Below, piece after piece: positions 6,133 to 21,094 of a stretch of DNA of 64,000 bases (position 1 is its first letter; the number at the start of each line of letters is the position of its first letter). The notes under the pieces were generated by a model, which searched no databases, was not told the DNA's origin, and worked only from the letters and a program-made list of their open reading frames with translations. The DNA is from Aequorivita todarodis. GTDB taxonomy: Bacteria > Bacteroidota > Bacteroidia > Flavobacteriales > Flavobacteriaceae. The translations under genes were made by a program, and so were the position numbers. The stretch covers positions 62,001-126,000 of the forward strand of contig NZ_JAQQTG010000019.1 in the NCBI RefSeq assembly GCF_028561335.1, written 5' to 3'.

Positions 6133-6217
6133 GAATTATAATATATAATATATTGCTCCCACAAAATTTGGGAATTAAAAAAATATCAAGAAAAGGTAAA
6201 GGAAAAACCTGTTTTTG

Positions 6218-6340
6218 TTATCTATCCCCGCCAGAGCGAAAGTAGAATGTAGCACCTTCTCGATTGAGGCCCCGCAATAAATGCGGGGTCGAGGGTTGCT
6301 AAGGCGTCACAGGGTCTATTCCCTCGGCCTTTCTTGATAA
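6218..6340 (-). promoter_or_regulatory. SAM-I riboswitch (S-box leader) of the metH operon
   Basis: The reverse strand shows the SAM-I core in order: TTATCAAGAAAGGCCGAGGG, AGACCC, TGACGCC, GCAACC, AAGGTGCTACATTC and the closing GATAGATAA, which pairs with TTATC to form P1. It ends 138 nt before metH1. The P3 stem (CTCGA/TCGAG) is capped by an inserted palindrome, ccccgcatttattgcgggg. No U-tailed terminator follows, so control of translation or Rho is more likely than an intrinsic terminator. Confidence 0.93.
6266..6288. repeat. Palindromic element inside riboswitch P3 loop
   Basis: gaggccccgcaataaatgcg plus ggg. It is of the same family as 9993-10015 in the metK SAM-II leader. It lies between the two arms of P3, where SAM-I tolerates length variation. 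Confidence 0.8.
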
Positions 6341-6366
6341 CTTTTCATAATGCTTATGAACTGGTG

Positions 6367-9541: not shown

Positions 9542-9669
9542 TTTTCTAATTTTTTTGAGTTAATAAATAGATTAAAACAAAAGATCAATCTCGAAATAAA
9601 TTCGGGACAATAGAAAAATGTTAAAAAGAAAAAATGAAAAGCAATTTCAGAAAAGAAATTGTCCTGTCG

Positions 9670-9804
9670 TTATCTATCGCCAACTTTGAAGATTTCAAAA
9701 TTGTTGTAGAATGTAGCACCTTCTTAAATGAGATTCTCGCCTGCGCGGGAATTTAAGGGTTGCTAAGGCGTCATAGGGTCTATTCCCTCGGCCTTTCTTG
9801 ATAA
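9670..9804 (-). promoter_or_regulatory. SAM-I riboswitch of the metB-like operon
   Basis: Reverse strand: TTATCAAGAAAGGCCGAGGG, AGACCC, TGACGCC, GCAACC, AAGGTGCTACATTC, P4 hairpin (CAATTTTGAAATCTTCAAAG) and closing GATAGATAA. It is nearly identical in its core to the metH copy. P3 is CTTAAAT/ATTTAAG and its loop is filled by a different palindrome, ttcccgcgcaggcgagaa. Confidence 0.94.
9730..9750. repeat. tcccgcgcaggcgaga palindrome in riboswitch P3 loop
   Basis: It belongs to the attcccgcct-cgcgggaat family found in frame in the E2 gene (45357-45383) and at the paaJ stop codon. Confidence 0.75.
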
Positions 9805-9835
9805 CATTTCAGTAAAGATTTGAACTTTGTGAGCG

Positions 9836-9924: not shown

Positions 9925-9937
9925 CCGAAGATAATTT

Positions 9938-10070
9938 AAGAGGAAAGATTTGACTGATTGCAACCTCTTTCAAACACAGTATTTCTGGGTTTGAGGCCCC
10001 GCAACGAGTGCGGGGGAAAAATGCTAAAGGCAGTGAAAACTTCCCTTCGGCGCATCCGTCAAATCTTTGC
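9938..10070 (+). promoter_or_regulatory. SAM-II-type riboswitch (long-loop variant) of metK
   Basis: P1 is AAGAGG (9938) with CCTCTT (9964). Its loop holds GATTTGAC-TGATTGCAA, matching the conserved SAM-II loop (GAUUUAA...AUUGCA). The 3' conserved part AAAAATGCTAAAGG (10017-10030) matches the SAM-II GCUAAA segment, and ACTG in the loop can pair with CAGT at 10031 for the pseudoknot. Between these lie a CAAAC/GTTTG hairpin and a palindromic repeat. Downstream, GTCAAATCTTT (10058-10068) is an exact 11-nt complement of AAAGATTTGAC (9944-9954) in the aptamer and may form the alternative structure. Class assignment is by eye. Confidence 0.75.
9993..10015. repeat. Palindromic element inside the SAM-II leader
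   Basis: gaggccccgcaacgagtgcg plus ggg, same family as in the metH SAM-I P3 loop (6266-6288). It lies between P1 and the 3' conserved segment. Confidence 0.8.
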
Positions 10071-10235: not shown

Positions 10236-11489
10236 ATGGCCTATTTATTTACTTCGGAAAGCGTTTCCGAAGGACACCCAGACAAAGTTGCGGATCAGAT
10301 TAGCGATGCGCTTTTGGATAATTTTTTGGCTTTCGACCCCGAAAGTAAAGTGGCTTGCGAAACGCTTGTAACTACCGGACAGGTTGTTTTGGCGGGCGAA
10401 GTAAAAAGCAATACCTACCTCGACGTGCAGACAATTGCGCGCGATGTGATCAACAAGATTGGTTATACCAAAGGCGCCTATAAATTTAGCGGGGATTCGT
10501 GTGGTGTTATTTCGTTGATCCACGAGCAATCGCAGGATATTAACCAAGGTGTTGACCGCGCGAATAAAGAAGAACAGGGCGCTGGCGACCAAGGGATGAT
10601 GTTTGGCTATGCTACCAAGGAAACCGAGAATTATATGCCGTTGGCCTTGGATATTTCGCATAAAATTTTGATTGAATTGGCTGCGCTTCGCCGTGAGGAT
10701 TCTGAAATAAAATACCTGCGCCCCGATGCGAAAAGCCAGGTAACCATTGAATACAGCGATGATAATATTCCGCAGAAAATCGTTGCAATTGTGGTCTCTA
10801 CACAGCACGATGACTTTGATGAGGATGAAAAAATGCTTTCGAAAATCAAAAAGGATATAACTGAAATTTTGATTCCCCGGGTAAAAAGGCAACTGCCGGA
10901 ATACGTTCAGAAATTGTTTAATGATGATATTATTTATCACATAAACCCAACTGGAAAGTTCGTAATCGGTGGCCCGCACGGCGATACTGGCTTGACAGGA
11001 AGAAAGATTATTGTTGACACCTACGGCGGAAAAGGCGCGCACGGTGGCGGTGCTTTTAGTGGAAAAGACCCCAGCAAGGTAGATAGAAGTGCGGCGTATG
11101 CTGCAAGACACATTGCGAAAAACCTTGTTGCGGCTGGCGTTGCCGATGAAATCTTGGTGCAGGTTTCATACGCAATTGGCGTTGTGGAACCAACCTCTAT
11201 TTTGGTAAATACCTATAATTCCTCAAACGTAAACCTTTCCGATGGCGACATTGCGAAAAAGGTTTCCGAAATTTTCAATATGCGCCCTGCGGCCATCGAA
11301 GTCAGACTTAAATTGCGCAATCCTATCTATTCCGAAACGGCGGCATATGGCCATATGGGAAGGATTCCGGAGAAAATTACCAAGACTTTTGAAAGCCCCT
11401 ACAATGGGAAAATTGAGAAGGAAGTGGAGCTTTTTACTTGGGAGAAGTTGGACTATGTTGATAAGGTGAAGGAAGCTTTCAACTTGTAA
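10236..11489 (+). CDS. metK: S-adenosylmethionine synthetase
   Basis: A 417-residue MetK. It makes SAM from methionine and ATP in the cytoplasm, as a tetramer. GHPDK (residues 14-18), the [11 protein letters not shown] hexapeptide region, and the phosphate-binding [17 protein letters not shown] are intact. It is the product-forming enzyme sensed by its own SAM-II-type leader, while both SAM-I leaders sense the same product. Confidence 0.97.
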
Positions 11490-11491
11490 AA

Positions 11492-11632
11492 CCCATCCCG
11501 ATAACTATCGGGACAAGCACCAAATTCCAAATAAATTCCAAAATACAAACCTGCCTGTCGTGCTTTTGGCAGGCAGGTCCCAAATTCCAAAGATTGCCGC
11601 ACTTCGCTCGCAACTGGAATTTGGGATTTATA
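11492..11632. repeat. Repeat cluster after metK
   Basis: tcccgataactatcgggac palindrome, then copies of caaattccaaataaattcca and a cctgcctgtcg...ggcaggcagg palindrome. The aaattccaaa family recurs at 24886 and 30606-30800. Confidence 0.7.
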
Positions 11633-11906
11633 TTTTTCCTTTGTATAAATCGGCAATTGGAAAAATCATATCATAATCATTCCAATTTAAGTTACCGTTG
11701 ATTATTTTATATTGAAGAAATTTTTTTTCATCAAAATATTTCTTGATGGATGGATGATTAGATTTGGATAGAAATGGTTTAAAATCCACAATTTTTATGG
11801 TGTTATCACTAAAGTTTATTTCAATAACGAAATCTCCCAAATATTTGGCAGCTGCTATATTGAGCGCTTTACCCTCCACATTATCATAATCAACAATTAT
11901 TTTCAT
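11628..11906 (-). CDS. DUF2442 domain protein
   Basis: A 92-residue small protein. The core FVIEINFSDNTIKIVDFKPFL and the end DMIFPIADLYKG follow the DUF2442 pattern (use of the pair strand-substrate-FkpyL, then W.....i.p..LY). Its ATG overlaps the stop of the DUF4160 gene by ATGA, so the two are co-translated. DUF2442/DUF4160 pairs are repeatedly found together and have been suggested to be toxin-antitoxin-like; activity is not shown here. Confidence 0.7.
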   Translation of the reverse strand: MKIIVDYDNVEGKALNIAAAKYLGDFVIEINFSDNTIKIVDFKPFLSKSNHPSIKKYFDEKKFLQYKIINGNLNWNDYDMIFPIADLYKGKI

Positions 11907-12208
11907 TTTATTCTCTTTGTGATTCGTTCAAAGTCAACATTCTTATGATATACAAAATAATCAATCCATTTTTCAACAATTTTATCGGCATACATTTCAA
12001 GAAATTCTTCAAAATCCCTAAGCTCTTTTCCTTTTAACGGTTCTCTTCCTTTTATGTTTTTAATCTTGATTTCTTTTATAACTCCTTCAACAATATAAAA
12101 TTCAGCCTTACTTTCAAATTCTCCCTTTTTTGCATGAACATGAATAGGTTCATGTTCATTAGAGTAGAAGAAAATCAATATACCTAAATATTCAAATATT
12201 TTTGGCAT
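11903..12208 (-). CDS. DUF4160 domain protein
   Basis: A 101-residue protein. The IFFYSNEHEPIHVHAKKGEF stretch, with its closely spaced histidines (HEPIHVH), is the DUF4160 signature. It is the first gene of a two-gene unit with DUF2442. A TAAATTTG box lies 16 nt upstream on the minus strand (12225-12232) but I found no matching TTG. Confidence 0.75.
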   Translation of the reverse strand: MPKIFEYLGILIFFYSNEHEPIHVHAKKGEFESKAEFYIVEGVIKEIKIKNIKGREPLKGKELRDFEEFLEMYADKIVEKWIDYFVYHKNVDFERITKRIK

Positions 12209-12244: not shown

Positions 12245-13795
12245 TTATTGCCCTCCTTTTCTTTCAGGCACCCTTGGCGTTGGCCACGTTTGGCGTTCTC
12301 CTGTTTTATCGTCAATCGGCAGAATAATTTGTTCGCGCGAAGTTTTAGAATCGTCTTCCGAAGCCATATAAGCCATAATTGCAGTTAAGATTACGTTGCT
12401 TTGCACATCGTCAAAAACAATTTTATCGTAGGTATCGAGATTTGTGTGCCAAGTATAATTCCAATAATCCCAACTTAAAGAACTTAAATTGAAAGCAGGC
12501 GCACCAGCGGCCACAAAACTCGCATTGTCTGAGCCTCCGCGCGCCGGCCAGCCCGGAAAAGTGGTTTCAATATGTTTTCGGATGGTGTCCGGAACCGCCT
12601 TCAACCAGCGTGAAATATAATCGTAAGAATGAAGGAATCCTGCCCCGTTGATACTCGTAACCCTTCCCGTACCATTGTCCTGATTGAAAACCGCTTGAAT
12701 ATTATTAACGATTTCGGGATGGTCTGCCACGAAGGAAGAAGAACCGTTTAAACCCTGCTCCTCACTTCCCCAATGGCCCACTAAAATTGTGCGTTTTGGA
12801 TTGGGATATACTTTTTTCAGAATTCGCATGGCTTCCATCATCACCAACGTTCCCGTGCCGTTGTCTGTAGCTCCAGTTCCGCCGTCCCACGAATCAAAAT
12901 GTGCTGAAAGGATTACGTATTCTTCAGGTTTTTCGGTTCCCTTAATTTCTGCGATGGTGTTAAAAGTTGGCACAACGCCCAAATCCTTAGATTCGGCAAC
13001 CACGTGAATTTTCGGTTTGTCGCCGTGTTCCACCATTCTGTAAAGCATACCATAATCTTCCAACTGAATATCTACGGTAGGAATTTTTTTGGTGCGCGCC
13101 CCGAAAATTTTATTCGCGCCAAAAGCTTTGGACCAGTACGAATCAACAATGCCAACTGCGCCGGCTTCTTCCAAGGCTGGAATAATGCTTCTTCGGTCGT
13201 AGCCGCTGCGTTTTATGTTTTCGTTCCAGGCTTTGGTCTGTTCCTCTCTTTCTTTTTTCATCTTTTCAAAAGATTCGGGTGTGGCCCATTCTTTCCAATT
13301 ATCGTCCGGTCTTCCCGTGGGTTGCTTCATCGCAACCATCACGAATTTTCCCTTCACATTCGGCAACCATTTTCTGAATGAAATTGAATCCCTTATTTCG
13401 GGAAGCACAATCAATTCAGCAGTTACGCCTTTTGAGGACGTACCTGGATTCCACGCTAATTGTGTCCCGCTTAAGGTTTGAACACGTGGCGAAACCATAT
13501 CGATATGGGTTATGCCGCGCTCCCAGCCTTTCCATTCGCCCCATTGTTGGTTTTCTGCGGAAATACCCCAGCTTTTATATTTTGCCACGGCCCAATCGTG
13601 GGCTTGCCGCATTTGGGGCGTACCAACCAATCGCGGACCGATATCGTCCAGCAATTCGTGCGCGAGAATTTCCAGTTGTGAATTTTCGTAGGCTTCTTTT
13701 TGGATGTTTTCGATTATTTCGTTTTTTTCCTGGGAAAAAGTTGAAAGGGCTGAAAATAAAAGAAAGGCGAATGTGAGGCAGTATAGTTTTTTCAT
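12245..13795 (-). CDS. Exported M28 family zinc peptidase
   Basis: A 516-residue peptidase with a signal peptide (MKKLYCLTFAFLLFSALSTF). The M28 metal ligands are visible in order: SAHFDSW, GATDNGTG, the catalytic WGSEEQG, FNQDNGTG and YTWHTN. A protease-associated-like insert precedes them (residues about 130-250). It likely acts in the periplasm or outside as an aminopeptidase or carboxypeptidase on peptides. The neighbours give no specific substrate. Confidence 0.9.
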   Translation of the reverse strand: MKKLYCLTFAFLLFSALSTFSQEKNEIIENIQKEAYENSQLEILAHELLDDIGPRLVGTPQMRQAHDWAVAKYKSWGISAENQQWGEWKGWERGITHIDMVSPRVQTLSGTQLAWNPGTSSKGVTAELIVLPEIRDSISFRKWLPNVKGKFVMVAMKQPTGRPDDNWKEWATPESFEKMKKEREEQTKAWNENIKRSGYDRRSIIPALEEAGAVGIVDSYWSKAFGANKIFGARTKKIPTVDIQLEDYGMLYRMVEHGDKPKIHVVAESKDLGVVPTFNTIAEIKGTEKPEEYVILSAHFDSWDGGTGATDNGTGTLVMMEAMRILKKVYPNPKRTILVGHWGSEEQGLNGSSSFVADHPEIVNNIQAVFNQDNGTGRVTSINGAGFLHSYDYISRWLKAVPDTIRKHIETTFPGWPARGGSDNASFVAAGAPAFNLSSLSWDYWNYTWHTNLDTYDKIVFDDVQSNVILTAIMAYMASEDDSKTSREQIILPIDDKTGERQTWPTPRVPERKGGQ

Positions 13796-13928
13796 AACAA
13801 TAGATTAATCTTCCGATGCTTTTTTCAGAAATGAAATCTAAAATTACAACTTATTTACCATTTCAGCTATTGGATTTTTTTCACCACAAAGGTCGCAGAG
13901 GGCTGCACAAAGTTCACCAAGTAAATAA

Positions 13929-13959
13929 GACCTCACAGGTTTTTGAAACCTGTGAGGTC
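13929..13959. repeat. Perfect inverted repeat gacctcacaggttt / aaacctgtgaggtc
   Basis: Fourteen-base perfect arms around a 3-nt loop, just after the response-regulator stop codon. No U run follows on the minus strand, so if it ends transcription it is not of the classic type. Confidence 0.85.
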
Positions 13960-13970
13960 CATATTAGCAG

Positions 13971-14618
13971 TTAAATTATATTATGGTTTCTGGCCTTTTG
14001 CACGGCTTCAATCTTGCTGTGTACCTGTAGTTTCTTGTAGATATTTTCAATGTGTTTCCGAACCGTGCTTGGCGAAAGAAAAAGATGATCTGCAATAATC
14101 GTGTAGCTCAAACCTTTGCTGAGCTGCTCCAAAACCTCAACCTCGCGGGTGGAAAGGGAGATTTCCTCCTTGTCTTTCAAGTTTTGAATATCTATGGGAT
14201 TTCGCAATAGTTTTAAGGTTTTCATTGCAATGGAAGGGTTCATCGCCGCGCCGCCATTTAAGGTTTCCAAAATGCCTTCGTATAAATCTTTTGGGTTGAT
14301 TTCTTTCAGCAAATAGCCATCGGCACCGGCTTTTATAGCGTTGAAGATATGCTCGTCGTTATCAAAAGCGGTGAGCATGATTATTTTGATGTGCGGATAT
14401 TTCTGCTTAACGATTTGCGTGGTTTCAATGCCGTTGAGAACGGGCATTTCAATATCCATCAAAATTAAATCGAGGTTGTGATTTTCTTCGAGTTTTGTGA
14501 GCAGCTCACTGCCGTTCAGAGAGGTATGCTTCACTTTTACATCTTCAAAAAAGGAGAGTTTTTCCTTTATGGCGTTTATCAGAAAGGTGTTGTCGTCAAC
14601 TATTGCAATTTTAAGCAT
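13971..14618 (-). CDS. NarL/FixJ-type response regulator
   Basis: A 215-residue regulator. Receiver domain: acidic pair VDDN (8-9), phospho-acceptor Asp55 in LILMDIEMP, Thr83 and Lys105 (LLKE). The LuxR-type helix-turn-helix is at about 150-210 (STREVEVLEQLSKGLS, then SPSTVRKHIENIYKKL). The preceding gene encodes a matching HisKA_3 kinase. A conserved 18-bp palindrome lies 61 nt upstream of its own start and also before the three neighbouring units, which makes this protein the best candidate to bind it. Confidence 0.93.
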   Translation of the reverse strand: MLKIAIVDDNTFLINAIKEKLSFFEDVKVKHTSLNGSELLTKLEENHNLDLILMDIEMPVLNGIETTQIVKQKYPHIKIIMLTAFDNDEHIFNAIKAGADGYLLKEINPKDLYEGILETLNGGAAMNPSIAMKTLKLLRNPIDIQNLKDKEEISLSTREVEVLEQLSKGLSYTIIADHLFLSPSTVRKHIENIYKKLQVHSKIEAVQKARNHNII

Positions 14619-14648
14619 CTTTGGTACGGTTAGTTGTTTTAAAGATAC

Positions 14649-14656
14649 TAAAAATA
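14649..14656 (-). promoter_or_regulatory. -7 box of the response-regulator promoter
   Basis: TATTTTTA on the minus strand, exactly 22 nt downstream of the palindrome at 14679-14696. Confidence 0.55.
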
Positions 14657-14678
14657 CCTTTTAGGAAGTATTGAAAAA

Positions 14679-14696
14679 ATAGGGCAATTGCCGTAT
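14679..14696 (-). promoter_or_regulatory. Shared 18-bp palindromic operator, site 1
   Basis: ATACGGCAATTGCCCTAT on the minus strand. The core GGCAATTGCC is a perfect palindrome. It is one of four copies with the same orientation and spacing. Confidence 0.8.
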
Positions 14697-14755
14697 AAAT
14701 ATGACAAAAGAATAAAGAGAAAAGAACACAGACAAAAATAGTACGCCAAATCTCA

Positions 14756-16711
14756 TTATTTTTGAAAATTCAAAATAACGCTGGTACCTTTATTTATTTT
14801 TGAATTAAATTCAATGTTTCCCCCAATCTCTCGGGCGCGTTTTTTCATATTGTTCAACCCATTTCCCAGTGTTGCGGAATCTGCATCATAACCTTTGCCG
14901 TTGTCAATAATCTCAATTTGGTACTGGCTTTCCTCTTTTGAAATATTCACTTCAATTTCATCTGCGGAAGCATATTTCAATGCATTGTTCACAGCTTCTT
15001 GAATAATCCTGTAAATGTTCATGCCTTCCACGGATGAAAACACGTGCGTTTCATCAACATTTTCGTCAATATTAAATGAAAACTCGGTTTTTTCCGAAGC
15101 GTTTTTGGCGTGCTCAATAAAATTGGCGATTCGGGCCTGCAGGTCCTCAAAAGTTATGTTTTCCTTGTTCATCGCCCAAATGGTGTCGCGCAATTCATAA
15201 ATGGTTTGCGATGTGAAATTGCTGATACTTGTTAACTTATTTCCTAATTTTTCGCTGATTTCCGTAAATCCAAATTTTAAATTGTCAATGCTGGAAATGA
15301 TAAAGGTGAGCTGCGCCCCAATATTGTCGTGAAGGTCGCGGGAGATTCGCAGGCGCTGCTCCTGTAATTTGTTTTGGGTTTCAATTTTTGCCAAAGCAGA
15401 TGTTAATTCAGCTTCCTTTTGAAGCTGGCGGTTTTTTAGTTTTTGTTGGTTGTAGAGCAAATAGCCCAGTAGCCCAAGAACCAAAGCCAGTCCGAGACTG
15501 CCGAAGATAAAGGTGTTTTTACGGCGGACTTCCAGATCTTTTTCTGCCAACTGGGCGCGTTGTTTTAGGATTTGGTTTTCCTTTTTTTCGGTTTGGTATT
15601 TCGCTTGAAGTTCATTGGTAATGTTGAGCGCTTTCTCACCAACTATTTCTTCCTGAAGAAGTGCATATTTGGTGCTGTAATACAATGCACTGTCGGGAGC
15701 TTTTTCACTAGCAAAAACGGTAACATATTGCAGATAAAGGGTTGAAAGTTTTTCTTTAATACCTTCCTTTTTATAAAAAGGCCTGATCTCATCCAGCAGC
15801 AATCGTGCTTTTCTATATTCTCCCAATGTGTTATGAATTCCGGCCAAAGTTAATTTGGAACTCATCAAATCTGCTACCATATTTGAATTCGTGCGATATT
15901 GAAGTGATTTGGAAATCGCTTCTTTGGCCTGCTGAATTTTATGCTGAGCCATATATACTTCCCCGAGATTATTATAAGCTGCACCAAGAGTTTCAACGTT
16001 ATTTATGGATTCGGAAATTTTAATGCTTTCCGCTAAGGTTTTTATTGCGCTCAAGGTATCCTTCATCACCAACTGAATGCTGGCTTTATTGACCAACGCA
16101 TTTCCCAAAAGTTTGCCCTGATCCGTTTTTCTAAAAAAATCAATATTTTTATTAAAGTACCGAAGTGCTTCTTTATAATTTTTTTGGTTGAAATGTAAAG
16201 CGCCAATGTTACTTTCAGCAGAATTGGCCAAAACTTCATTGCCGGTATCTTCATAGAATTTAAGTGCCTTTAGGTAATAAATCATCGCACTATCTAGTTG
16301 GGTTTTCTTGTGATAGGCCGTGCCAATTTTATAGTGAAGAGATGCAATTCCTGCTGAATCGCGCTGTTTTTCTCGGATGGTGAGCGACTGTTTATAAAAA
16401 TTTAGCGCTTGTTGCAAATCGCCTTTACTATAATTCACCACAGCGAAATCACTTAAAGCCTGTGCTATTAGTGTGGAATCCCCAATTTTTCTGGCAGCTA
16501 CCAACGATTTTTTTCCATATACAAAGGCAGAATCGGTATCTACCATACTGTAATACCAAGTTAAATCTGCATAAATTTTTGCCTTATCGCCAACAGAAGA
16601 TACTTTGGAAAGATTCGTTCTAAGGCTATCAATAATTTCAACTGGATTTTGGGAAATCATTTTGGAACAAAGAAATATTCCGAAAAATGCAATCATTAAA
16701 ATTTTATTCAT
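14756..16711 (-). CDS. TPR sensor histidine kinase (HisKA_3 type)
   Basis: A 651-residue kinase. A signal peptide is followed by tetratricopeptide repeats to about residue 370, which would lie in the periplasm. A short coiled coil and one membrane helix follow (FIFGSLGLALVLGLLGYLLY, about 400). The cytoplasmic part has the phospho-histidine in RISRDLHDNIGAQ and an ATPase domain with NNALKYA, DNGKGYD and GNGLNNMKKRA. It is the usual partner of NarL-type regulators. Its start overlaps the stop of the 87-residue gene upstream. A close paralogue lies at 17079-19058. Confidence 0.92.
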   Translation of the reverse strand: MNKILMIAFFGIFLCSKMISQNPVEIIDSLRTNLSKVSSVGDKAKIYADLTWYYSMVDTDSAFVYGKKSLVAARKIGDSTLIAQALSDFAVVNYSKGDLQQALNFYKQSLTIREKQRDSAGIASLHYKIGTAYHKKTQLDSAMIYYLKALKFYEDTGNEVLANSAESNIGALHFNQKNYKEALRYFNKNIDFFRKTDQGKLLGNALVNKASIQLVMKDTLSAIKTLAESIKISESINNVETLGAAYNNLGEVYMAQHKIQQAKEAISKSLQYRTNSNMVADLMSSKLTLAGIHNTLGEYRKARLLLDEIRPFYKKEGIKEKLSTLYLQYVTVFASEKAPDSALYYSTKYALLQEEIVGEKALNITNELQAKYQTEKKENQILKQRAQLAEKDLEVRRKNTFIFGSLGLALVLGLLGYLLYNQQKLKNRQLQKEAELTSALAKIETQNKLQEQRLRISRDLHDNIGAQLTFIISSIDNLKFGFTEISEKLGNKLTSISNFTSQTIYELRDTIWAMNKENITFEDLQARIANFIEHAKNASEKTEFSFNIDENVDETHVFSSVEGMNIYRIIQEAVNNALKYASADEIEVNISKEESQYQIEIIDNGKGYDADSATLGNGLNNMKKRAREIGGNIEFNSKINKGTSVILNFQK

Positions 16712-16967
16712 TGCGATCTCTTTCTAAAATTATGATTTCCGGCTGCACCATTAGTGCTTCTTCAAGATTGTATCTTTGAAAATCATAGCGGTTCAGGTTT
16801 TGGTTTCTATTGTTAATCTGAAATGTAGCAGTGGAAATGGCCCGTTCCAAAGCAACAATCGTTTGGTCATGGGTTTTGGCCAGCACAATTTTCCTGTTAA
16901 AAAACCAAACCGTTATCCCAATTATTGCGGAAAACAGCATTGCAGCTATGGCAAATTGTACAAACAT
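16704..16967 (-). CDS. Small membrane protein coupled to the TPR kinase
   Basis: An 87-residue protein that I do not recognise. Residues 1-24 form one membrane helix (QFAIAAMLFSAIIGITVWFF) and the rest is polar (NNRNQNLNRYDFQRYNLEEA). Its stop codon overlaps the kinase start (ATGAATAA), so translation is probably coupled. The shared palindrome and -7 box lie directly upstream at the standard spacing, so it is the first gene of the kinase unit. A role in signal input or kinase assembly is a guess from position. Confidence 0.7.
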   Translation of the reverse strand: MFVQFAIAAMLFSAIIGITVWFFNRKIVLAKTHDQTIVALERAISTATFQINNRNQNLNRYDFQRYNLEEALMVQPEIIILERDRNE

Positions 16968-16991
16968 TTTTCTGAAGTTGGTTTTAATCTT

Positions 16992-16999
16992 TAAAAATA
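16992..16999 (-). promoter_or_regulatory. -7 box of the small protein / kinase promoter
   Basis: TATTTTTA on the minus strand, 22 nt after the operator at 17022-17039. Confidence 0.55.
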
Positions 17000-17021
17000 C
17001 GTCTATTTCCCTTTAAAAAAT

Positions 17022-17039
17022 ATAGGGCAGTTGCCTTAT
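17022..17039 (-). promoter_or_regulatory. Shared 18-bp palindromic operator, site 2
   Basis: ATAAGGCAACTGCCCTAT on the minus strand, 54 nt upstream of the 87-residue gene. Confidence 0.8.
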
Positions 17040-17078
17040 AATCCCCACCCCGCCCCAAAGGAGAGGGAGCTAATTGTT

Positions 17079-19058
17079 TCAAAAAATAAGTCTCACCACG
17101 GTTCCTCTATCTATTTCTGAAGTGATTGCCACGTTTCCCCCCAAATCTTTGGCGCGTTTTTTTATGTTTGCGATGCCGTTGCCGAAACTTGTTTTTTCCA
17201 TATCGAAACCTTTGCCGTTATCGGTTATTTCCACCTTAAAGGAAGTCCCCACCCCCGACCCCTCCCCAACAGGGAGGGGAGCTTTGGATAGGGAAACTTG
17301 TATTTGGGTTGCTTCGGAATATTTTAGGGCATTGTTTACGGCTTCCTGTATAATCCTGTAAATATTCATGCCTTCCACAGAGGTAAAATGCTTTTCCCTT
17401 AAAACATTTTCGGCAACATCAAATTGAAAATTGACATCGCTGGACACCTTGGCCTTTTCAATAAAATTTGAAATGCGCGCCTGCAAATCCTCCACCGAAA
17501 TATCTGTTTTGTTCATCGCCCAAATGGTGTCGCGCAGCTCATAAATGGTCTGTGAGGCAAACTCGCTTATCCTGCCCAATTTATCGGTTACGGACGTTGC
17601 GGCACCCTCCAAGCCATACTTTAAATTGTCTATGGAAGAAATAATAAAAGTGAGCTGGCTGCCAATATTGTCATGGAGGTCGCGGGAAATCCGCAACCGC
17701 TGTTCCTGTAATTGGTTTTGGGTAGCTATCTTTGCGAGGGCCGTTTTCAGTTCGCTTTCTTTTTGAAGTTGGCGGTTTTTCAGTTTTTGCTGCTTGTAAA
17801 AAAGATAGCCGATAAGCCCCAAAAGCAGCGCAAGTCCAAGACTTCCGAAGATCAGATTGTTTTTCTGTTCCACTTCAAGCTCCCTTTCCGCAAGGTTTGC
17901 CCGGGTTTCCGCGAGGGCCCTTTCTTTTTCGGAAATATTGAATTTCGTTTCCAACGCCGCTGTATTCTCGGCATTTTGTTGTGAAAAAATACTGTCCCTG
18001 AGCGCAATGGCCTTTATAAAATATTCGTTGCCTTTTTCGGGATCGTTGTTCAGGAAATTGGCCTGTGATACCGCATAATAGTATTCAGAAATACTCACCT
18101 TTTGTTCCGGAAATTGCTGGATTAAATTTTCGCCCTTCTTCAGCACCTTGAGGGCTTCCTTTAAATTATTTTTTAGGATATAGGCTTCCGCAAGATTATT
18201 GATGGAGGTAATCACTCTATGCACCCCAATTTTTGTGGCAAGCCTTCCATCTATCACTTCCTGCAGAAGAGGTATGGCAAGGTCCGTTCGGTTTGTTTTT
18301 TGGTATAGGCTGGCCAAAGTATGGGTTAGATCGAAATACAGATCTTGGTTTCCAACTTCCTTTGCCAGATTTCTACCTTCAACTAGCATTTTTTCCGCTT
18401 CTTTGAAATCACCTTTGTCCTGTAAATTAATGGCAATGTTGTTAAGGGAAACGGGAATATCCTTGGTTTTTTTATATTCCCGGCGGATGGCCAGGGCCTT
18501 TTGGTGATACTCCAAAGCTTTATCGGCCATATTCATATCTTGGTAAATGAGGCCTATATTGTTAAGGTAGGTATCGTCCTTGTCGGGGGTGCCGTATTTT
18601 CTGTTCAGGGCAAGTGCCTCGAAAAAATAATCCAAAGCGTTTTGGTAATTTCCTTGGTTCCAATTGGACATGCCCAGGCCGTTTGTGCATCGTGCCTCAA
18701 GGTCTGCAAAGCCGTAATCCTTGCTCATCAAAAGCGCCTTCTTGAAATAGAATTGGGCCGAATCGTAAACACCTTGTACGTCATAATATATTCCCAAGGT
18801 ATTGGTAAGCCGTGTTTTACTGTAGGCTGTTTTTGGGGTGGTAGTTTCCCTTAATCCCTTTTGAAGAAAACTTTTTGCTTTTTCAGGTTCATTAAAAATA
18901 TAATAAAACCCCAAATCGTTATAAATAGCGAGCCGCGTGGAATCATTCGCCGTTTTTGCGGCCTGCACCAAACTGTCCATTTTCTTTTGGGGAGCTTGCG
19001 AAAAGACTGTTGAAAGTCCAATAAACAAAAACAGAAAAACACAGAAAAAACATTTCAT
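17079..19058 (-). CDS. TPR sensor histidine kinase, second paralogue
   Basis: A 659-residue kinase with the same plan as its neighbour: signal peptide, TPR repeats to about 350, coiled coil, membrane helix (LIFGSLGLALLLGLIGYLFY, about 400), phospho-histidine in RISRDLHDNIGSQ, and ATPase motifs NNALKYS, DNGKGFD, GNGIANIKKRA. Residues about 591-606 (APLPVGEGSGVGT) are translated from a palindromic repeat and sit between two strands of the ATPase domain; the paralogue lacks them. It has its own operator and promoter. Confidence 0.92.
   Translation of the reverse strand: MKCFFCVFLFLFIGLSTVFSQAPQKKMDSLVQAAKTANDSTRLAIYNDLGFYYIFNEPEKAKSFLQKGLRETTTPKTAYSKTRLTNTLGIYYDVQGVYDSAQFYFKKALLMSKDYGFADLEARCTNGLGMSNWNQGNYQNALDYFFEALALNRKYGTPDKDDTYLNNIGLIYQDMNMADKALEYHQKALAIRREYKKTKDIPVSLNNIAINLQDKGDFKEAEKMLVEGRNLAKEVGNQDLYFDLTHTLASLYQKTNRTDLAIPLLQEVIDGRLATKIGVHRVITSINNLAEAYILKNNLKEALKVLKKGENLIQQFPEQKVSISEYYYAVSQANFLNNDPEKGNEYFIKAIALRDSIFSQQNAENTAALETKFNISEKERALAETRANLAERELEVEQKNNLIFGSLGLALLLGLIGYLFYKQQKLKNRQLQKESELKTALAKIATQNQLQEQRLRISRDLHDNIGSQLTFIISSIDNLKYGLEGAATSVTDKLGRISEFASQTIYELRDTIWAMNKTDISVEDLQARISNFIEKAKVSSDVNFQFDVAENVLREKHFTSVEGMNIYRIIQEAVNNALKYSEATQIQVSLSKAPLPVGEGSGVGTSFKVEITDNGKGFDMEKTSFGNGIANIKKRAKDLGGNVAITSEIDRGTVVRLIF
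17243..17284. repeat. In-frame palindromic insertion in the second kinase
   Basis: Core gacccctccccaacagggag plus flanking ccccaccccc. The other TPR kinase, otherwise aligned here, has no such segment. Confidence 0.75.
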
Positions 19059-19097
19059 AAAAAGCCATTGTTGGGAATCCTAAAGTACAGAAAAAAA

Positions 19098-19160
19098 ATA
19101 AACCCCATAGTTTAACATGGGGTTTCAGAACTGCAAACGCCCCTCAACTCGTTTGCGTTT
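19098..19160 (-). other. Structured 5' leader of the second kinase
   Basis: Two hairpins in the untranslated leader: aaccccat...atggggtt and gcaaacg...cgtttgc. They lie between the predicted transcription start near 19197 and the ATG at 19058. Function unknown. The rest of the 358-nt gap holds the operator, promoter and the terminator of the lipoprotein gene. Confidence 0.5.
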
Positions 19161-19202
19161 TGAAAAATAATCTGGTTAGTAGATCACTTTAAATTTCCTA
19201 TA

Positions 19203-19210
19203 CAAAGATG
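19203..19210 (-). promoter_or_regulatory. -7 box of the second kinase promoter
   Basis: CATCTTTG on the minus strand, 22 nt after the operator at 19233-19250. Confidence 0.55.
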
Positions 19211-19232
19211 CTTTTTGGCAAAAGAATAAACA

Positions 19233-19250
19233 ATAGGGCAGTTGCCGTAT
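19233..19250 (-). promoter_or_regulatory. Shared 18-bp palindromic operator, site 3
   Basis: ATACGGCAACTGCCCTAT on the minus strand, 174 nt upstream of the second kinase start. Confidence 0.8.
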
Positions 19251-19334
19251 TCTCAGTAGTCAGTATTCAGTGTTCAGTATAATTTTAAGGCTCCTAAACT
19301 TTTAAACCCCTCAACTTTTAAACTTTTAAACTAT

Positions 19335-19372
19335 AAAAAAAACCGGAGGAAAAACTTGCGTTTCGCCCCCGG
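19335..19372 (-). terminator. Intrinsic terminator of the lipoprotein gene
   Basis: On the minus strand CCGGGGG pairs with CCTCCGG (one G-U) and is followed by a run of eight U. It lies 45 nt after the stop codon. Confidence 0.7.
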
Positions 19373-19417
19373 CCCACGTAAAAACCTCAACATAGAGATT
19401 TTCTTTAGTGCGTTTGC

Positions 19418-19936
19418 TTACTGGAAATCCACATTGAATGAACCTTCGGTAATGTCTTTAAAAGTACCATCCGCATTTTTGCCTTTAAAATTAAAAGTAC
19501 CTTTAATGTTGGTTGAACTAATTTCCGAAACTTTTATTTCGCCCGCAACGCTTGTATCATACGGAGCAACCCATATTTCTGAATTTGTTGGATTGTTAAC
19601 ATCTACTTCTGTATAGCTGGCATTGCCAAATACGTTGGGGCCGCCGCCAATGCTGTAGGTGCCTACCCCGTCAAAACCACCATTAATTGACAAAGTGATG
19701 TTTTTGCCGTTCATGGTATTTGAAGTGATCATTAAAGTGCTGACCCCATTGGCATCGGAACGTACGGCACTGGTCACCAAAGGATCCGAATTATAGCTTG
19801 CGCCAGAAACCTTTGCGCTTACAGTTCCAGAAGCAGCATCACCGCCGCCTCCGCCATCGTCGTCTTTTTTACAAGAAGTTAAACTTACGGCAACAACTGC
19901 CATCAATACTAAAATTGTTTTGTTGAATAGTTTCAT
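19418..19936 (-). CDS. Small lipoprotein, DUF6252-like
   Basis: A 172-residue lipoprotein. The lipobox is VSLTSC with Cys22, followed by KKDDDGGGGGD, the acidic signal that in Bacteroidota sends lipoproteins to the outer membrane or surface. The mature part is rich in beta strands, S, T, G and N (VSAKVSGASYNSDP, then GTYSIGG and GSFNVDF), resembling the DUF6252-type lipoproteins. It has its own copy of the shared operator and is the only non-signalling product of that set, so it may be the output of the two-component system. Confidence 0.75.
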   Translation of the reverse strand: MKLFNKTILVLMAVVAVSLTSCKKDDDGGGGGDAASGTVSAKVSGASYNSDPLVTSAVRSDANGVSTLMITSNTMNGKNITLSINGGFDGVGTYSIGGGPNVFGNASYTEVDVNNPTNSEIWVAPYDTSVAGEIKVSEISSTNIKGTFNFKGKNADGTFKDITEGSFNVDFQ

Positions 19937-19987
19937 AATGTTTGGTTTTAGTTCTCCGCCGCGGCGGATACGTGATTAATGTTGAAG

Positions 19988-19995
19988 CAAAATTG
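19988..19995 (-). promoter_or_regulatory. -7 box of the lipoprotein promoter
   Basis: CAATTTTG on the minus strand, 22 nt after the operator at 20018-20035. Confidence 0.55.
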
Positions 19996-20017
19996 GTCCA
20001 AACCTGAAGTTCTCACA

Positions 20018-20035
20018 ATAGGGCAATTGCCTTAT
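20018..20035 (-). promoter_or_regulatory. Shared 18-bp palindromic operator, site 4
   Basis: ATAAGGCAATTGCCCTAT on the minus strand, 81 nt upstream of the lipoprotein start. Confidence 0.8.
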
Positions 20036-20074
20036 TCTTTTCAGTATGCAGTATTCAGTACCAGTTGGCAGTAC

Positions 20075-21094
20075 TTAAAATTGAATATGTGGAAATAGAT
20101 TTTTAAGTGAAGAAATTTTCTGTTGAAGATTTGCCAAAAACCGGAGATGTTCGGCACTTTCGGGATTTAAGGACCTGTGGTTCAGGCCATTTTGTATGGA
20201 GGCGATTTCCTTTTGAAGCGTTTCGGTTTCAGCAGCAATCCAAACTTTGGAAAATTTCTGCCAAATAAGCTCGATGGCGGTGCTGTTTGGATGAAGCAGA
20301 TCCTCGGCGTAAAAACGGTAATCGCGGAGTTCGTCCATCATGATTTCGAAGGCAGGAAAGTAAAAGGATTTACGATTTACGTCCCGAAAGCTATCGGGAG
20401 CCGATTTTAGATTTAAGAAGTGGTGGATTGCAGAAATGAGATGCGCTTTGCTGAGTGAATTTTCCGCGAAACCATCTTTAATATGCCGCACGGGCGAAAC
20501 GGTGTTTATAATTGTCGCGGTCGGGTTTATTGTTGAAATTTTATCGAAAATAGTTTGAAGGCTTTTTGAAATGGTTTCGATGGAAAGCAATTCCTTTTGA
20601 AAATGTTGCTTCGGAAGTTTATGGCAGTTGGCTACAATTTCGCCTGTGCTTAGCAGAGCCGAAGCACGGTCGCTGAGCGGAGCCGAAGCGTCAACAGTCC
20701 TGTAAACCCACGAAGTTCCAAAAGTGAAAATGATATGCGTTGCAGAAAAGAGAGCTTCGCGAAGGTTTTGCAAAGCCGAATTTAGATTAACTAAAAATTC
20801 ATCCATATCCAAAGCCGAAAGCTCGGAATGTGCTTCAAAACATTTCCAAACTTCATTGTGCTGAAAAATATCTTCTTCGGAAAAGGAAACGTCGTCAATT
20901 GCGCGAACAATCAGTTTTTCAATCGATACAGGATTGAAAATTACCCCAAACGGATTCTGTAAATTCTGAAACTTGAAATAATCAAACTTTCTTCCAATGT
21001 TTTCCGAAAAACAGCTTCCCATCAAAAGGATTTTGGAGGAATAATCTATCTGATTTTCTTCGGGGTTTAGCGGTATTTCGGTTTGGAGCTTCAT
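20075..21094 (-). CDS. GSCFA domain protein
   Basis: A 339-residue member of the GSCFA family (SGNH-hydrolase-like, function not established). The eponymous motif is LLMGSCFSENIG near residue 25, then NPFGVIFNP, TFGTSWVY, IVANCHKLP, TVSPVRH and MMDELRDYRFYAEDLLHPN. Two stretches are translations of repeats: residues about 133-149 (DASAPLSDRASALLS) between TFGTSWVYRTV and TGEIVANCHK, and about 228-238 (APDSFRDVNR). Both sit in loops between conserved motifs. Confidence 0.88.
   Translation of the reverse strand: MKLQTEIPLNPEENQIDYSSKILLMGSCFSENIGRKFDYFKFQNLQNPFGVIFNPVSIEKLIVRAIDDVSFSEEDIFQHNEVWKCFEAHSELSALDMDEFLVNLNSALQNLREALFSATHIIFTFGTSWVYRTVDASAPLSDRASALLSTGEIVANCHKLPKQHFQKELLSIETISKSLQTIFDKISTINPTATIINTVSPVRHIKDGFAENSLSKAHLISAIHHFLNLKSAPDSFRDVNRKSFYFPAFEIMMDELRDYRFYAEDLLHPNSTAIELIWQKFSKVWIAAETETLQKEIASIQNGLNHRSLNPESAEHLRFLANLQQKISSLKNLFPHIQF
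20385..20406. repeat. In-frame tcccgaaagctatcggga palindrome in the GSCFA gene
   Basis: Of the same family as tcccgataactatcggga after metK (11493) and upstream of paaG (55952). Translated as PDSFRD. Confidence 0.8.
20650..20697. repeat. In-frame agccgaagc / gcttcggct repeat in the GSCFA gene
   Basis: Contains agagccgaagcacggtcgct and gagcggagccgaagcg. Translated as ASAPLSDRASALLS inside an otherwise conserved region. Confidence 0.75.

Follow-up and report, generated by a model that had tools for sequence, protein, structure and literature searches.

A palindromic operator at a fixed promoter position in a putative self-activating TPR-kinase/NarL-type circuit of Aequorivita, and a conserved structured RNA

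What makes four promoters of a single two-component locus carry the same 18-bp palindrome, each time at the same distance from the -7 box? The question is raised by a 64,000-nucleotide stretch of the Aequorivita todarodis genome (contig NZ_JAQQTG010000019.1, positions 62,001 to 126,000; hereafter the window, whose own coordinates are used throughout), in which a NarL-type response regulator, two tetratricopeptide repeat (TPR) kinases, a small membrane protein and a lipoprotein are encoded on the minus strand. Such kinase/regulator pairs are many in Bacteroidota, though to our knowledge hardly any of their operators have been described. The original prediction, made from the sequence of this stretch, proposed that the regulator binds the palindrome and activates its own gene, both kinases and the lipoprotein. 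The answer favoured in the present study, with a probability of roughly three in four, is a self-activating TPR-kinase/NarL-type two-component circuit with its operator at -52 to -35. It interprets features that were computed directly, namely the site, its fixed spacing, its conservation, its co-occurrence with the regulator, the promoter classes and an RNA with covariation.

A palindrome at a fixed distance from the -7 box

The palindrome occurs four times on the minus strand of the window (at 14679, 17022, 19233 and 20018), with 0 mismatches each and always exactly 22 nt ahead of a -7 box, as had been claimed. Operator 1 (ATAAGGCAATTGCCCTAT, 20018..20035) stands before the lipoprotein gene, whose promoter has the box CAATTTTG at 19988..19995. 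Operator 2 (ATACGGCAACTGCCCTAT, 19233..19250) belongs to promoter 3, an RNA promoter with the box CATCTTTG at 19203..19210. Operator 3 (ATAAGGCAACTGCCCTAT, 17022..17039) precedes the small membrane protein and kinase 1 (box TATTTTTA, 16992..16999), and operator 4 (ATACGGCAATTGCCCTAT, 14679..14696) precedes the response regulator, again with TATTTTTA at 14649..14656. When up to 3 mismatches were allowed, 8 matches were obtained, each of the four places being counted once per strand, compared with 0.29 on average in shuffles; none of 100 shuffles reached 8, and no fifth place appeared in the window. The 22-nt spacers agree pairwise in just 4-12 of 22 bases and the 60-nt upstream stretches have 13-19 of 60 bases in common. 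Hence, the four promoters are not a duplicated promoter, on which point the original prediction was also right.

In the whole assembly (3.33 Mb, 99.87% complete), the 18-mer was found as 4 exact copies, one copy with 1 mismatch (C38:21114) and one with 2 mismatches (C44:14443). The first of these near-copies lies 22 nt ahead of a CACCTTTG box, upstream of an open reading frame (ORF) with SBBP beta-propeller repeats, while no box stands 22 nt beyond the second. The genome scan proposed with the original prediction thus gave few copies and added one with the same spacing. The extended pattern (site, 22 nt and box, at most 1 mismatch) has 6 places in the genome, among which C32:20318 was rejected as a sixth site as it sits within a 250-aa ORF, short-chain dehydrogenase-like by eye.

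The spacing was then measured in the 80 loci ranking closest when genomes were scanned for the regulator protein, with regulators 70-97% identical and ranging from Aequorivita to Flavobacterium (pattern ATAMGNCANNTGNCNTAT). This gave 226 oriented sites, and 81 of them carried a strict [TC]AnnTTTG box at offset 22, compared with at most 2 at every other offset from 0 to 59 and a background of about 0.0011 per base. Because one palindromic site is often counted in both orientations, this fraction understates the effect. At lipoprotein promoters, the best box within 12 nt either way was exactly at 22 nt from the palindrome in 50/51 scored loci; 16 of these have a drifted core (e.g., ATACGTAATTCATCGTAT) with length and ends unchanged. 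As for the neighbouring genes, no spaced palindrome was found upstream of the peptidase gene (7 loci) or of the GSCFA gene (58 loci), apart from three coordinate artefacts in the latter, which scored high since their windows overran the contig start (printed offsets 1006, 3548 and 6302) and were dropped. Within the genus, all 28 genomes have at least one exact (0-mismatch) site with 22 nt and box, so that the scan of relatives also suggested at the outset agreed with the prediction; this count excludes a coding-region match, always with 1 mismatch, that is found in many genomes. The reversed-pattern control (site, spacing and box) gave 0 in all genus, family and class genomes scanned.

According to a logo built from 143 distinct 22-spaced sites, the consensus is A-TACGNCA-NN-TGNCSTA-T, its two centre bases carrying little information. 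This is a 7-2-7 inverted repeat, the same geometry as that of NarL sites (TACCCCTAAAGGGGTA; excerpt of PMC4549865). With the TAnnTTTG box occupying -12 to -5, as given in an excerpt of PMC9723704, the palindrome spans -52 to -35 and is centred at about -43.5 instead of near -42 as first proposed. Its final T starts a TTG at -35 to -33, the next two positions being T in 80% and G in 54% of the logo sites; the site therefore abuts or overlaps the -33/-35 element at a fixed distance, a position of class II type. The right half had been considered invariant and thus to fix the direction. Among the 143 relatives' sites both halves vary, ATAGGGC being the left half in 15, and hence invariance of the right half is confined to this genome.

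The neighbouring regulator as likely binder

The response regulator (215 aa, 13971..14618, minus strand), proposed as operator binder, combines Response_reg (8.1e-25) and GerE (6.4e-18) domains in Pfam, i.e., the architecture of NarL/FixJ (LuxR-type) proteins. Searched with phmmer against solved structures, it matched VraR (5.6e-30, residues 2-215) and NarL (5.3e-28) over nearly its full length. At a homologue cut-off of E<=1e-60, the regulator is present in 76 of 299 family genomes, and the strict pattern of site, 22 nt and box in 42. A regulator homologue is present in 41/42 pattern-bearing genomes vs 35/257 pattern-free ones (Fisher 3.7e-28, or 4.5e-19 by genus, both ignoring descent). The sole exception, G181, has an AT-richer palindrome.

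The same association extends beyond the family. The class scan found the pattern in 16/295 genomes, 14 of them outside the family and spread over ten family groups. There, 13 of the 14 pattern-bearing genomes have a homologue (E<=1e-45); among 66 genomes without the pattern, chosen by their order in the list, 4 have one (Fisher 1e-10, ignoring descent). The spaced site is located directly before the regulator gene in three loci (L215, L216 and L219) whose regulators are 46-63% identical and whose kinase homologues are adjacent, and likewise in G518, all four being in other families. In addition, when up to 3 mismatches were allowed, no 18-mer match lay within 7 kb of any of the other eight among the nine GerE proteins of the genome. 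Co-occurrence, 7-2-7 geometry and the match to VraR and NarL together indicate that the NarL-type regulator is likely the binder of the palindrome, which upholds this part of the original prediction as a probable assignment. In L220 (4868-4929; another Bacteroidia family), two palindromes lie 44 bp apart between a regulator homologue and a divergent ORF.

Several observations weigh against the proposed circuit. Upstream of the regulator itself, a palindrome of at least 12 bits was found in only 46/79 loci, and at the 22-nt distance the box scored at least 5 in only 29 of these 46. The Aequorivita regulator promoter is ambiguous, a second candidate -7 box, TATCTTTA, being placed at 31 nt, i.e., 9 nt further; the regulator promoters of L036 and L043 have TATTTTTG at 22 nt. 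The strict pattern is absent from 35 of the 76 regulator-bearing family genomes. The bare 18-mer at 2 mismatches is noisy, matching in 166/299 family genomes, with the reversed control also matching in some; for this reason the tests use site and box jointly. A link between regulator residue and operator core speaks for the circuit. When 35 regulators with classic operators were compared with 15 with drifted ones, the majority residue differed only at positions 109 and 184, the latter, to judge by NarL-type folds, presumably starting the recognition helix. CA..TG is kept in at least half of the cores in 42/43 loci with S/A184 and 11/34 with G184 (77 loci with sites), an association that rests on 2 well-supported independent pairs in the tree, is not significant allowing for descent, and is therefore suggestive only.

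The remaining proteins of the locus are all encoded on the minus strand. Kinase 1 (651 aa, 14756..16711) and kinase 2 (659 aa, 17079..19058) each contain TPR, HisKA_3 and HATPase_c domains according to Pfam and are thus TPR sensor histidine kinases. The 87-aa small membrane protein (16704..16967) overlaps the start of kinase 1; it has a hydrophobic start by eye and no Pfam match. The 172-aa lipoprotein (19418..19936) belongs to DUF6252 (PF19765, E 3.4e-9). Its C22 is invariant in 29 aligned sequences, and its profile found no relative among solved structures (best E 0.083).

A structured RNA behind the third promoter

The third site had been assigned to kinase 2. An intrinsic terminator of 10 pairs followed by a T-run (19125-19100, minus strand) stands between promoter 3 and this gene, which begins about 40 nt beyond the stem, and the promoter would instead make a terminator-ended RNA of about 105 nt. 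This RNA (19093..19198, minus strand; start placed from the -7 box) has three hairpins, with loops ACUAACC and UGAGG, and is conserved in other Aequorivita from promoter 3 to the terminator end. Direct control of kinase 2 is not supported, because the conserved RNA and the terminator intervene. Of the targets first proposed, the regulator's own gene, the kinase 1 unit and the lipoprotein are thus retained. In the gap between terminator and kinase 2 (19059-19099), a GTAYTTTAG-like stretch is conserved in L026, L166 and L168; it may serve kinase 2 as a -7 box of its own.

Across the 28 genus genomes, the slot behind this promoter is filled by the abutting RNA in 10, a gene with a PQQ-type start in 12 and another exported protein in 4, while 2 have no such site. 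The ten distinct stand-alone copies of the RNA (alignment A1, from which two unrelated word matches, in L104 and at window 34356, were dropped) share a mean identity of 83% over a 91-nt core, compared with 55% and 57% in the flanks and 68% in the promoter spacer. Six of them were folded, and all gave the terminator and hairpins, with z from -2.8 to -4.5. A covariance model matched 28/28 genus genomes at E<=0.01; the best match lies in the regulator locus for 27, and in G303 the locus match ranks second. In relatives, the element sits after the stop codon of a long ORF ending in YDLKK or similar, which in L028 is a PQQ_2 beta-propeller protein and in the window is missing (one scan of the relatives' loci took 73 of the 80, leaving out seven short ones). 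The window RNA is homologous to an element in the 3' untranslated region (3'UTR) of a PQQ_2 beta-propeller gene, which the window lacks.

In hairpin 2 the stem sequence varies freely, with pairing and UGAGG loop retained. Arms from the same genome pair at a mean of -11.3 kcal/mol vs -6.0 for arms from different genomes, which 0 of 20000 permutations matched (31 distinct). This test used 32 of 39 rows, after removal of five second matches within the same element and two unrelated places, and its 18-member subset was hand-picked. The L026 copy is an exception, its arms pairing badly at -3.8 kcal/mol. In alignment A3, which holds 17 of the 32 sequences, hand-chosen for spread, two-sided changes occur in 11 of 26 pairs, and the 34 cells concerned exceed the shuffle mean of 12.7, with 0/500 shuffles as high. 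Compensatory changes beyond shuffles thus mark a conserved structured RNA. In the same alignment the number of pair types was not above shuffles (375/500 as high), nor was the two-sided pair number beyond them in an Aequorivita-only set (125/500). RNAalifold, run on the 17 sequences, predicted helices 1 and 3 and missed helix 2, which was consequently tested by naming it and by arm pairing.

Outside the genus the element is sparser. A first covariance model matched 35/299 family genomes at E<=0.01, with 9 in the regulator locus and most others weak (strongest unlinked match in G075, 5.1e-5). A wider model matched 21/299 at E<=0.001, one match apiece; 18 of them share a contig with the regulator at a distance of up to about 10 kb, and the other three do not (E 3.4e-5 to 9.1e-4). 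Searched against Rfam at E<=1, window 13500-21000 gave no match to the RNA, the only match being mir-320 (E 0.15), elsewhere.

Small RNAs derived from 3'UTRs are a known general class in bacteria. The present element resembles them in following a stop codon and ending in the mRNA terminator, and differs in that some species lack the coding part, with the promoter directly adjoining the RNA. We tentatively suggest, at somewhat under even odds, a new regulatory RNA family: a 3'UTR element of a regulator-controlled beta-propeller mRNA would have lost its coding part and become a free-standing, regulator-controlled small RNA, acting in trans via its constant UGAGG(AG) and ACUARCC loops. If so, the circuit would deliver both protein and RNA, the two outputs tracing back to a single ancestral transcript. 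It is less likely than not that promoter 3 does serve kinase 2 and that the RNA is an attenuating leader read through under some condition, as the short distance to kinase 2 on the same strand would allow. Against such a leader, the RNA is kept in loci where kinase 2 is not next (L027, L029, L155, L160 and L163) and the small-protein/kinase-1 operator is found there instead; elsewhere the element sits behind the beta-propeller gene.

Proposed circuit, alternatives and meaning

The 22-spaced sites were also sorted by downstream gene. Out of 154 sites, 108 entered the promoter classes, with promoter 3, in the window and in L026, classed under kinase; the sites not used precede the small protein alone (5) or other genes (41). 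TG follows the palindrome in 50/56 lipoprotein/PQQ promoters vs 6/52 regulator/kinase promoters, and the box ends in G in 55/56 of the former and in A in 36/52 of the latter. One operator is thus found at two types of promoter, plausibly for output and for control. Further genes downstream of sites encode FGE-sulfatase-like, CHAT+TPR, MORN, OmpA+PD40, RCC1 and Por-secretion-tail proteins, mostly exported judging by eye from their N-termini. In four Aequorivita loci (L150, L154, L165 and L174), a different exported protein (..QWQQK or ..QWEQK) is found behind an operator, so that the cargo seems exchanged between species.

The overlap of the palindrome with TTG at -35 to -33 in the lipoprotein/PQQ promoters would also suit a dimer of the same regulator that blocks the -33 element, with negative autoregulation as a consequence, and at frdA NarL itself acts as a repressor through a 7-2-7 site close to the start (excerpt of PMC4549865), which likewise counts against activation. 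Repression nevertheless appears unlikely: an exactly fixed 22 nt across unrelated promoters and genera would suit an activator in contact with polymerase better than a roadblock, and the regulator/kinase promoters are mostly without TTG and often carry a TTTA box. A different DNA-binding protein is improbable. Nine GerE proteins exist in the genome and binding by the adjacent one is a prediction, whereas the palindrome co-occurs with this regulator in family and class, and spaced sites precede its gene in other families too. Least probable, and hardly credible, is that the palindrome is a sigma-factor element, a repeat element, or an RNA hairpin or terminator. In favour of this are its form, a short inverted repeat, and a terminator-like flag on the opposite strand at 20017-20036. 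Against it, the palindrome lies upstream of the predicted start, its distance to the downstream box is fixed whatever lies upstream, and its few genomic copies are linked to one regulator. As terminator or mobile repeat it was rejected for its copy number and for a position that tracks the downstream box.

In the self-activating circuit that we favour, the TPR sensor kinases would signal to the NarL-type regulator, we infer by phosphorylation, and a dimer of the phosphorylated regulator would bind the 7-2-7 palindrome TACGNCA-NN-TGNCSTA at -52 to -35. The bound dimer would abut or replace the -33 element and help the housekeeping sigma factor to use weak -7 boxes. As a consequence, the regulator would raise expression of its own gene, of the operon for the small membrane protein and kinase 1, of the lipoprotein (DUF6252) and of the structured RNA, as well as of a few unlinked genes, among them the beta-propeller gene (C38).

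The partner kinases of NarL are NarX and NarQ, in whose place TPR kinases are found here. VraR, the best match of the regulator among solved structures, responds to envelope stress and works in another phylum and on another promoter. NarL of Escherichia coli is alike in its receiver and GerE domains and in sites made of inverted heptamers with a 2-bp gap and TAC...GTA ends, and it activates promoters from 7-2-7 sites at -40..-49 and -38..-47 (excerpt of PMC4549865). Unlike there, the inner bases are GNCA here instead of CCCT, and one fixed position is used in a Bacteroidota -33/-7 promoter. Judged by description and domains, FimS/FimR of Porphyromonas gingivalis is similar as well, with a periplasmic-TPR kinase and a promoter-binding activator of surface-protein genes (excerpts of PMC1974823 and PMC11053733). 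Its targets are fimbriae, and the terms 'binding site', 'palindrom' and 'footprint' do not occur in PMC1974823.

Elsewhere in the window, a SAM-I (S-adenosylmethionine) riboswitch (9667-9807, minus strand) stands back to back with a SAM-II riboswitch (9934-10038, plus strand), the latter upstream of an ORF at 10236 that is S-adenosylmethionine synthetase-like by eye. A second SAM-I riboswitch is located at 6215-6343. Two overlapping small minus-strand ORFs at 11628-12208 resemble what we take to be a DUF4160/DUF2442 pair.

A search of the open-licence literature, which is not proof of absence, returned no description of the operator, the regulon or the RNA. The kind of system, a NarL-type two-component regulon, is known; the operator with its occurrence in several families and the RNA are the parts for which that search gave no description. 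Regulator, operator, promoter position and targets are readable side by side in several genera and, more sparsely, in several families of the class. Therefore, a single purified protein together with a handful of reporter constructs would be enough to test a rule that would be wide-reaching. The conserved RNA would be an unstudied output of this circuit and a natural example of a gene lost while its untranslated region persisted.

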